DNA of 64,000 nt from Chitinispirillum sp. Its GTDB lineage: Bacteria > Fibrobacterota > Chitinivibrionia > Chitinivibrionales > Chitinispirillaceae. The notes beneath the pieces were generated by a model, which searched no databases, was not told the DNA's origin, and worked only from the letters and a program-made list of their open reading frames with translations. Both the position numbers and the translations under genes were made by a program. Positions 24,601 to 27,688 of the stretch are shown here, piece after piece; the first letter of the stretch is position 1; each line of letters opens with the position of its first letter. Location: contig SKJJ01000040.1 of assembly GCA_007115975.1 (NCBI GenBank), forward strand, positions 1-64,000, read 5' to 3'.

Positions 24601-25482
24601 ATGCACATTTCTACTATTCTGAGCCAAAACAAAATCTCTTTCAGTTTTGAATTTTTCCCACCAAAAAATGATACGGCTGCAACCCAGCTCTACAACAGCA
24701 TCTCAGAACTGGTACCCCTTCAGCCGGCCTACGTGAGTGTAACCTACGGTGCGGGAGGTTCAACCCGTAACCTGACCCATGATCTTGTCCTGAAAATCCA
24801 GCGGCAAACAAGTCTCACCGTGGTGAGCCATCTTACCTGTCTTGGCACTTCAGAAAAGGAAGTCCGCACGATACTTGATGATTACCAGAAAAACGGTATC
24901 ACCAATATAATGGCCCTGAGGGGAGATATGCCCAAAGAGGGCACCCCGATCAGCAAAGATTTCTCCTATGCAAGTGAACTGGTTCGGTTCATAAAAACCA
25001 ACTACCCTTCCATGGGAATCGGTGTTGCCGGCTTTCCTGAAGGACACCCCGAAATGCCCAACAGATTAAAAGAGATGGACTTTTTAAAAGCCAAGATTGA
25101 TCAAGGCGCAGACTATATCTGTACGCAGCTCTTCTTTGAAAACAACGATTTTTATGATTTTTGTGAGCGGTGTCATCTTGCAGGTATCAGGGTTCCGATT
25201 CTTGCCGGAATAATGCCCATCACTTCAAAAAAAGGGATGCAGCGGATGGCTGAACTTGCCCTTGGCACCAGATATCCTGCCAGACTTTTAAAAGCACTGT
25301 CACGGGCTGAGGATGATGAGCTTTTCCAAAAGGTAGGCATCCACTGGGCAACCGAACAGGTACGTGACCTCATTGACAACAACGTCAACGGTATCCATTT
25401 CTACACTCTTAACCGCTCCAGAGCCACTCTTGAGATATATAACGCCCTGGGAGTCACCAGTTCAGCAGGTTTAACCGAGTAG
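24601..25482 (+). CDS. metF: 5,10-methylenetetrahydrofolate reductase
   Basis: Flavin-dependent reduction of methylenetetrahydrofolate to methyltetrahydrofolate for methionine synthesis. TIM-barrel enzyme of 293 aa with FSFEFFPPKN near the N-terminus, VTYGAGGSTR (around residues 48-57), MALRGDMPKEG and GADYICTQLFFEN motifs. The length equals the bacterial single-domain enzyme. The next gene, an ANTAR regulator, starts only six bases after its stop codon, so the two are co-transcribed. Confidence 0.96.
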   Translation: MHISTILSQNKISFSFEFFPPKNDTAATQLYNSISELVPLQPAYVSVTYGAGGSTRNLTHDLVLKIQRQTSLTVVSHLTCLGTSEKEVRTILDDYQKNGITNIMALRGDMPKEGTPISKDFSYASELVRFIKTNYPSMGIGVAGFPEGHPEMPNRLKEMDFLKAKIDQGADYICTQLFFENNDFYDFCERCHLAGIRVPILAGIMPITSKKGMQRMAELALGTRYPARLLKALSRAEDDELFQKVGIHWATEQVRDLIDNNVNGIHFYTLNRSRATLEIYNALGVTSSAGLTE

Positions 25483-25488
25483 TACAGA

Positions 25489-26193
25489 ATGAGTCAGAAG
25501 CACGGTATATCAGACAATCAATACCTCGAAGCTATCACCGAGATCAGCAGAGCAATTATGGATCGCAACTACCTTGATGATCTGCTTGCACTGATAGTGT
25601 CGGTGACCGCCAAGATCACCGACTCCAAAATATGCTCGATCCTTCTCATTGACAAAACTAACAACGAACTGATCCTCAAGGCGTGCCAATCAGAAACCGG
25701 AAAATACAGTCAGCGCTCCAACACCCCCTTGGGCAAAGGTATCGCCGGCAGAGTGGCTCTTGCCAACAAAGCGATAATGGTTAAAAACGTCTGTAATGAT
25801 AAACGATTCATAAATAAAAGAGTTGCAGAAGAGGACGGTCTTGTTTCCCTTGCCTCGGTACCGATGAGTGTGGAGGGTGAAGTCATAGGAGTTATAAACT
25901 GCTACACACCTTATGAATACGACTTCTCCCTCCAGGAGATAAGCATGCTCACCACAATAGCCACTCAGGCTGCAGTGATTATTAAGAATACCGAACTGCG
26001 CGTTCTAAAGGGGGTAGTGGAACAGGAACTGCAGGAGAGAAAAATAATCGAGCAGGCAAAAGAGATACTGATGTTTAAGAAAAACATCTCAGGCAAACAG
26101 GCATTCCAACTGCTGCGACACCAGAGCATGAACGACCGCACCCCCATGATAGAACTGGCCCGATCAATTATTATAGCCTCATCGTTTGACTGA
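25489..26193 (+). CDS. GAF-ANTAR transcription antitermination regulator
   Basis: Cytosolic RNA-binding regulator of 234 aa. A GAF sensory domain covers about residues 20-165 (SKICSILLIDKTNNELILKA, LGKGIAGRVALANKAIMVKN, SVPMSVEGEVIGVINCY). A connecting helix leads to a C-terminal ANTAR domain (about 175-230) with IEQAKEILMFKKNISGKQAFQLLRHQSM. ANTAR proteins bind paired hexaloop hairpins in nascent leader RNA and prevent termination. Just such a hairpin and a terminator lie immediately downstream, before gdhA, giving a probable target. The ligand of the GAF domain is unknown; nitrogen status is the natural guess. Confidence 0.93.
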   Translation: MSQKHGISDNQYLEAITEISRAIMDRNYLDDLLALIVSVTAKITDSKICSILLIDKTNNELILKACQSETGKYSQRSNTPLGKGIAGRVALANKAIMVKNVCNDKRFINKRVAEEDGLVSLASVPMSVEGEVIGVINCYTPYEYDFSLQEISMLTTIATQAAVIIKNTELRVLKGVVEQELQERKIIEQAKEILMFKKNISGKQAFQLLRHQSMNDRTPMIELARSIIIASSFD

Positions 26194-26221
26194 AAGATCA
26201 CTATAAGTTATATTATCACCC

Positions 26222-26268
26222 GTATAACAACGGCGTTATACCCACAAAAGGTTATCGATGATGATGCC
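26222..26268 (+). promoter_or_regulatory. Candidate ANTAR-responsive RNA element in the gdhA leader
   Basis: A perfect 7-bp stem GTATAAC/GTTATAC (26222-26228 with 26235-26241) closes a six-base loop AACGGC (26229-26234) with A at position 1 and G at position 4, the ANTAR hexaloop signature. Downstream, a second weaker hairpin (26250-26256 with 26263-26268, one bulge, loop GATGAT) has G at position 4 but not A at position 1. Its 3' arm shares bases 26266-26268 with the terminator, so the two would be mutually exclusive. Confidence 0.7.
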
Positions 26269-26307
26269 CGGCTCCACAAATATATGGAGTGCGGGCTTTT
26301 TTATTTT
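26266..26307 (+). terminator. Intrinsic terminator/attenuator upstream of gdhA
   Basis: Stem GCCCG + CTCCA (26266-26276) pairs with TGGAG + CGGGC (26285-26296) across a small internal loop, with an 8-base apical loop. A T-rich tail (TTTTTTATTTT) follows from 26297. It lies between the ANTAR gene and gdhA, 44 bases before the gdhA start. Confidence 0.85.

Positions 26308-26326: not shown

Positions 26327-27688
<1,362 letters not shown>

Follow-up and report, generated by a model that had tools for sequence, protein, structure and literature searches.

A GAF-ANTAR regulator and a candidate dual-hexaloop antitermination leader upstream of gdhA in Chitinispirillum sp.

Results

Genes and features of the metF-gdhA locus

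We examined a 64,000-nt stretch of DNA from Chitinispirillum sp. (GCA_007115975.1, contig SKJJ01000040.1, positions 1 to 64,000, forward strand), referred to here as the window, in which a gene for a GAF-ANTAR protein lies between metF and gdhA (Table 1). These identities were first assigned from the sequence in an initial annotation, and domain searches agree with them. Both domains of the regulator pass their Pfam cut-offs (63 bits vs. a cut-off of 27.3 for PF03861), and the downstream gene encodes an NADP-specific glutamate dehydrogenase according to Pfam and NCBIfam (PRK09414, 777.8 bits vs. a cut-off of 536). A PF03861 search of the genome identified the GAF-ANTAR regulator as its only ANTAR-domain protein.

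Table 1. Features of the metF-gdhA region (positions in the window)
Feature	Position	Strand	Basis or remark
metF (methylenetetrahydrofolate reductase)	24601..25482	+	Pfam MTHFR 3e-92; conserved neighbour, outside the switch
GAF-ANTAR regulator gene, 234 aa	25489..26193	+	Pfam GAF_2 1.1e-19, ANTAR 2.2e-17
-35 box TTGACT of the gdhA promoter	26186..26191	+	present in 11/12 leaders
-10 box TATATT, 17-bp spacer	26209..26214	+	predicted start ~26221
P1 hairpin, 7 bp, hexaloop AACGGC (26229-26234)	26222..26241	+	covariation, 12 leaders
P2 hairpin, hexaloop GATGAT (26257-26262; G1, G4)	26250..26269	+	3' arm overlaps the terminator; 95% of cells paired, 12 leaders
Intrinsic terminator, 11 bp, one bulge, T6 tract	26266..26302	+	hairpin part 26266-26296; folding
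gdhA, NADP-specific glutamate dehydrogenase, 445 aa (proposed gene under control)	26351..27688	+	Pfam ELFV_dehydrog 5.9e-95

Hairpins, terminator and predicted folding

The structural elements described in the initial annotation can be read directly in the sequence. The 7-bp hairpin P1 has arms GTATAAC and GTTATAC around its loop, with A1 at 26229 and G4 at 26232. The weaker second hairpin, P2, has arms GG.TATC and GATG.CC with G4 at 26260, and has three paired bases (26266, 26268 and 26269) in common with the 5' arm of the terminator. The terminator arms, GCCCGGCTCCA and TGGAGTgCGGGC, are followed by the T-rich tail, a TTTTTT tract. For the full leader, the minimum-energy fold (z = -2.4) includes P1 together with the terminator. 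When the RNA was cut just before the 3' arm of the terminator, P1 and P2 were predicted instead, and the cut RNAs of the 11 orthologous leaders folded likewise, with minor differences in loop closure. P2 can therefore fold first and the terminator later, which is the order of events that an antitermination switch requires.

As a bare motif (P1 of at least 7 bp with P2 of at least 4 bp), the hairpin pair occurs twice on the + strand and once on the - strand of the window, compared to 0.2 expected per strand from shuffling. The pair alone is thus not far above chance in 64 kb, and the case rests on conservation and comparison. An Rfam search of the window returned only tRNA above threshold and no family covering the leader, and the best sub-threshold matches around it were far below their cut-offs.

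Conservation of the leader in Chitinivibrionales

Twelve further genomes of the order have orthologues of the regulator with 61-81% identity, placed through named records in Fibrobacterota, Chitinivibrionales / Chitinispirillaceae. Among 168 Fibrobacterota genomes scanned, such orthologues turned up only in the order Chitinivibrionales; when named genomes were scanned, a single-protein query gave no matches and an alignment query did. gdhA is the gene next to the regulator in ten genomes, including that of the window. Two others have one intervening gene, which in G036, the one case examined, encodes a Cys/Met-metabolism PLP enzyme, and the last places the regulator at a contig end.

We built a covariance model of P1 and P2, R1, from eight leaders and ran it over 40 genomes of the order. 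Twelve matches lay before gdhA, four of them outside the model-building set (G036, E 2.1e-12; G027, 5.1e-9; G035, 2.5e-4; and G024, 0.011, whose leader is the weakest match to the model). The remaining R1 matches all had E > 0.001; weak matches elsewhere (E 0.001-0.1) were found both with and without the regulator and were rejected as noise. The leader thereby precedes gdhA in 12 of the 12 genomes of the order that have both a GAF-ANTAR orthologue and gdhA. We looked in particular for genomes with the regulator beside gdhA and no hexaloop pair, the refuting case named in the initial annotation, and found none; in all ten genomes with that gene order the pair and a terminator are present, and both are also kept in the two genomes with one gene between regulator and gdhA (G027 and G036).

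Over the twelve leaders, 96.5% of cells are paired, compared to 28-55% in slid controls. Two-sided changes occur at 5 of the 7 P1 pairs, and all 19 compensatory cells fall in P1 (4.3 with shuffling). P2 is near-invariant in sequence, as would be expected of a stem whose 3' arm doubles as terminator sequence, and its changes are one-sided only. The covariation upstream of gdhA orthologues proposed as a check in the initial annotation therefore backs P1, but not P2. All 24 loops have G4. Loop position 1 is A in 11/12 P1 loops and 7/12 P2 loops, and G otherwise. The second hexaloop had initially been regarded as imperfect and as the weak point of the proposal; with G1 in 5 of the 12 orthologous leaders, it appears to be normal here. 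Mutation of A1 reduced induction in the EutV system (PMC3369931). In the EutV-RNA structure G4 is the sole base-specific contact and A1 is uncontacted (PMC8934654), which fits the tolerance of G at position 1.

The P1-P2 linker measures 8-11 nt across leaders. A hairpin and T tract lie 3' of P2 in all twelve leaders and overlap P2 in eleven, the exception being L064. It is conceivable that the GAF-ANTAR protein binds the leader and acts in another manner, for example by repression or on translation. In actinobacteria, overlap between ANTAR elements and the ribosome binding site is common and control at translation is presumed (PMC8164766), and the missing overlap in L064 would suit such an action. 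However, the constancy of the terminators, and their location well before the gdhA start codon (26302 vs. 26351 in the window), make this very unlikely. In G035, the first terminator of the gdhA leader (L061, 1501-1690) is followed in tandem by another P2-like hexaloop hairpin, GTC-AACGGC-GAT, and another terminator.

A promoter dedicated to gdhA

Inspection of the twelve leaders revealed a candidate promoter that had not been part of the earlier annotation. TTGACT is present in eleven, with TAnnTT exactly 17 bp downstream in ten; the exceptions are L061, which lacks the -10 box, and L064, which lacks the promoter. The distance from the -10 box to P1 is 7-11 nt (31 in one leader). The last codons and stop of the regulator gene (..TTT GAC T.., F-D-stop) supply the -35 box, with identical codons throughout in the window and eight relatives. 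Where a gene lies between regulator and gdhA (L059 and L060), the end of the regulator gene is different and the promoter is instead found before P1. A conserved promoter ending at the foot of P1 indicates that gdhA has its own promoter and that its transcript should begin there (~26221).

This arrangement bears on an alternative explanation, namely that the hairpin and T tract merely terminate transcription of metF and the regulator gene and that the hexaloop hairpin has no role. The position just after the regulator stop codon is a usual one for such a terminator. However, the terminator lies downstream of the conserved promoter, and a promoter dedicated to gdhA argues strongly against its being the mere end of the regulator transcript. 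Furthermore, promoter, hexaloops and terminator stay with gdhA in G027 and G036 despite the intervening gene, and P1 covaries yet keeps a hexaloop with G4 every time. We consider this explanation very unlikely, and retain a gdhA attenuator as the preferred reading.

Distribution of the leader and the regulator

Sixteen gdhA genes of the order have no regulator directly in front of them, and none of these was found to have the leader; the best score upstream of them, 12 bits (L102, E 0.08), was not significant. One of these genes is a second copy in G035, a genome that possesses the regulator. There, two gdhA copies flank the regulator, and only the downstream copy has the leader. A conserved leader with a terminator before a biosynthetic gene could also be a metabolite-binding riboswitch or a peptide attenuator working independently of the regulator. 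We regard this as extremely improbable, as the leader matches no Rfam family at threshold, its conservation is concentrated in the two hexaloops and the pairs that close them, and it tracks the regulator gene in 12/12 genomes and is absent where the regulator is absent. The comparisons taken together establish, at the sequence level, the element and its strict association with the regulator, as well as P1 covariation, a conserved promoter and the P2-terminator overlap.

A folate link between metF and the regulator, also suggested by the initial annotation, does not hold. In nine regulator-less genomes metF is still upstream of gdhA, and since it adjoins gdhA even where both regulator and leader are missing, the association is incidental. 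In a GdhA tree, the nine genes lacking regulator and leader cluster together within the leader-bearing lineages (support 92/89; parent branch 99/96). Three state changes suffice to explain the whole distribution, compared to 9.3 with shuffled labels. The pattern suggests that regulator and leader formed a cassette between metF and gdhA and disappeared together, although an ancestral state followed by loss and separate gains are not separable with certainty. In two genomes without the regulator (L095 and L099), the gap between metF and gdhA contains, within 250 bases upstream of gdhA, a long palindrome whose loop is GTCTTTTT, perhaps a dispersed repeat. Chitinispirillaceae without the GAF-ANTAR gene carry another ANTAR protein of ~190 aa (L049, 1483-2052, and loci L043-L048, from G010 and its genus); in G010 its gene sits between glutamine synthetase-like and purF-like genes.

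The regulator protein

When the ANTAR domain was aligned to EutV, 7 of 11 RNA-contact residues were identical (EutV R142, K143, K149, R168, M172, N173 and R175, corresponding to R184, K185, K191, R210, M214, N215 and R217 of the regulator). The G4-stacking Tyr164 of EutV corresponds to Phe206, and K147, E160 and R177 are replaced by Q189, G202 and P219. In the predicted structure (mean pLDDT 87), a GAF domain is followed by a single long helix and then the ANTAR part, which is helical. The best structural matches of the sensor domain are GAF domains of EI-Ntr/PtsP (3trc and 3ci6), and among named families it comes closest to NifA and PtsP. The GAF domain of NifA senses 2-oxoglutarate. That of PtsP binds glutamine (PMC4848567). 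Proximity to NifA and EI-Ntr makes a nitrogen signal likely; by analogy, the regulator probably responds to intracellular nitrogen status through glutamine and/or 2-oxoglutarate, the choice of GAF ligand being speculative.

Other targets and the wider GAF-ANTAR family

R1 gave no further target in the genome of the window at E <= 0.1. A second model, R2, had its next match in the same genome at E 0.17; this match lies inside a coding frame, has no terminator and was rejected. The genome also encodes glutamate synthase, a glutamine synthetase and two ammonium transporters, and no hexaloop pair was found near these genes. A diverged second target in the genome would be compatible with these searches, which scored part of their first-look candidates.

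Beyond the order we collected 72 homologues with 41-50% identity from Omnitrophota, Desulfobacterota and other phyla; plasmids in PLSDB contained only distant relatives, GAF-ANTAR proteins of ~25% identity. Genes for ammonium or glutamine metabolism are present at 52 of the 72 loci: glutamate-synthase-domain proteins at 28, glnA at 11, carB at 11, gdhA at 10, amtB at 7 and PII at 5 (gene clusters were named by Pfam on representatives or by clear sequence resemblance). A strict scan for P1, P2 and terminator, which allowed A or G at loop position 1, matched 16 of 426 upstream regions, compared to a mean of 0.1 in shuffled sequences. Three of the matches are Chitinivibrionales gdhA leaders; the rest lie mostly ahead of the regulator gene or of genes for glutamate-synthase-domain proteins. 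G1 recurs in similar leaders from other phyla. From these neighbourhoods and leaders, the regulator class looks like a regulator of nitrogen assimilation across phyla. The initial annotation had called a self-encoded, adjacent regulator of gdhA unusual. The neighbourhood is not, since homologues usually lie beside nitrogen-assimilation genes, but gdhA as the single detected target is lineage-specific, and the Fibrobacterota branch appears to have been reduced to gdhA alone.

In Omnitrophota and Desulfobacterota (L119-L190), the homologues cluster with the glutamine-using enzymes carAB, purF, pyrG and nadE and with glutamate synthase, a hint that glutamine may be the signal. One Omnitrophica contig (L190) has three P1-P2-terminator leaders, upstream of positions 227, 4977 and 7696, one of them before the regulator gene, suggesting an autoregulated regulon.

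Discussion

The sequence evidence makes it highly likely that the leader and the regulator constitute an antitermination switch of the EutV/NasR type for gdhA. The regulator has the features of an ANTAR protein and the leader those of its dual-hexaloop target, the one departure among the features open to testing being the lack of a strict A1 in the second loop, and the protein encoded next to gdhA very probably reads the gdhA leader. We propose that 26186-26302 comprises the gdhA promoter and an attenuator. RNA polymerase would start at ~26221, so that the leader RNA begins with P1, and P1 and then P2 would fold during transcription. Left to itself, the terminator, as the stronger structure, would capture the 3' arm of P2 and transcription would stop before gdhA. 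With its GAF domain in the signalling state, a GAF-ANTAR dimer would bind both hexaloops and hold P2, and transcription would continue into gdhA. Binding of the protein to RNA, the direction of control and action as a dimer are inferred from EutV and NasR.

It is also possible that the GAF-ANTAR proteins of Omnitrophota, Desulfobacterota, Fibrobacterota and other phyla are one family of antiterminators that sense glutamine or 2-oxoglutarate and control ammonium assimilation (gdhA, glutamate synthase, amtB and carAB), with the Fibrobacterota branch as a single gdhA switch. We offer this reading tentatively and with more doubt than confidence. If true, it would add an RNA layer of nitrogen control in lineages where none was known before.

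At the time the ANTAR mechanism was elucidated, no function had been characterised for any GAF-ANTAR protein (PMC3369931). The locus described here gives such a protein a defined and conserved candidate RNA target and a likely class of signal. It also bears on how uncultured Fibrobacterota control ammonium assimilation via glutamate dehydrogenase, and the system is small enough for a one-tube test with leader, protein, RNA polymerase and candidate ligands. ANTAR control of nitrogen genes, glutamate synthase included, has already been predicted in other bacteria (PMC3369931). Text searches of an open-access collection, in which the term GAF-ANTAR occurred in one paper, gave no published case of ANTAR control over gdhA, no GAF-ANTAR protein with a characterised target and no studied ANTAR system in Fibrobacterota.

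Among known systems, the EutV/eut leaders of Enterococcus faecalis (PMC3369931, PMC8934654) have the same two small G4 hexaloop hairpins, with A1 in most, the same overlap of P2 with an intrinsic terminator and a similar linker (5-12 nt in eut), and most ANTAR RNA-contact residues are conserved. However, EutV is equipped with a phosphorylated receiver domain and acts on several targets, whereas here a one-component GAF protein has one detected target. NasR and the nasF leader of Klebsiella oxytoca (PMC7496416) likewise combine a one-component ANTAR regulator, a nitrogen gene and a two-hairpin leader; unlike the present regulator with its GAF domain and gdhA, NasR has a NIT (nitrate) sensor and serves nitrate assimilation genes. 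The ANTAR elements predicted in Desulfotomaculum (PMC3369931) also precede ammonium-assimilation genes (glutamate synthase, PII and ammonium-transporter genes), but belong to another phylum; the phrase 'glutamate dehydrogenase' does not occur in that report and no GAF-ANTAR protein is characterised there. The GAF domains of EI-Ntr (PtsP) and NifA are nearest to the sensor of the regulator, at ~18-24% identity, but their output domains differ. From these comparisons, the kind of switch would be a known one, and the target gdhA and the bacterial group would be new for it.
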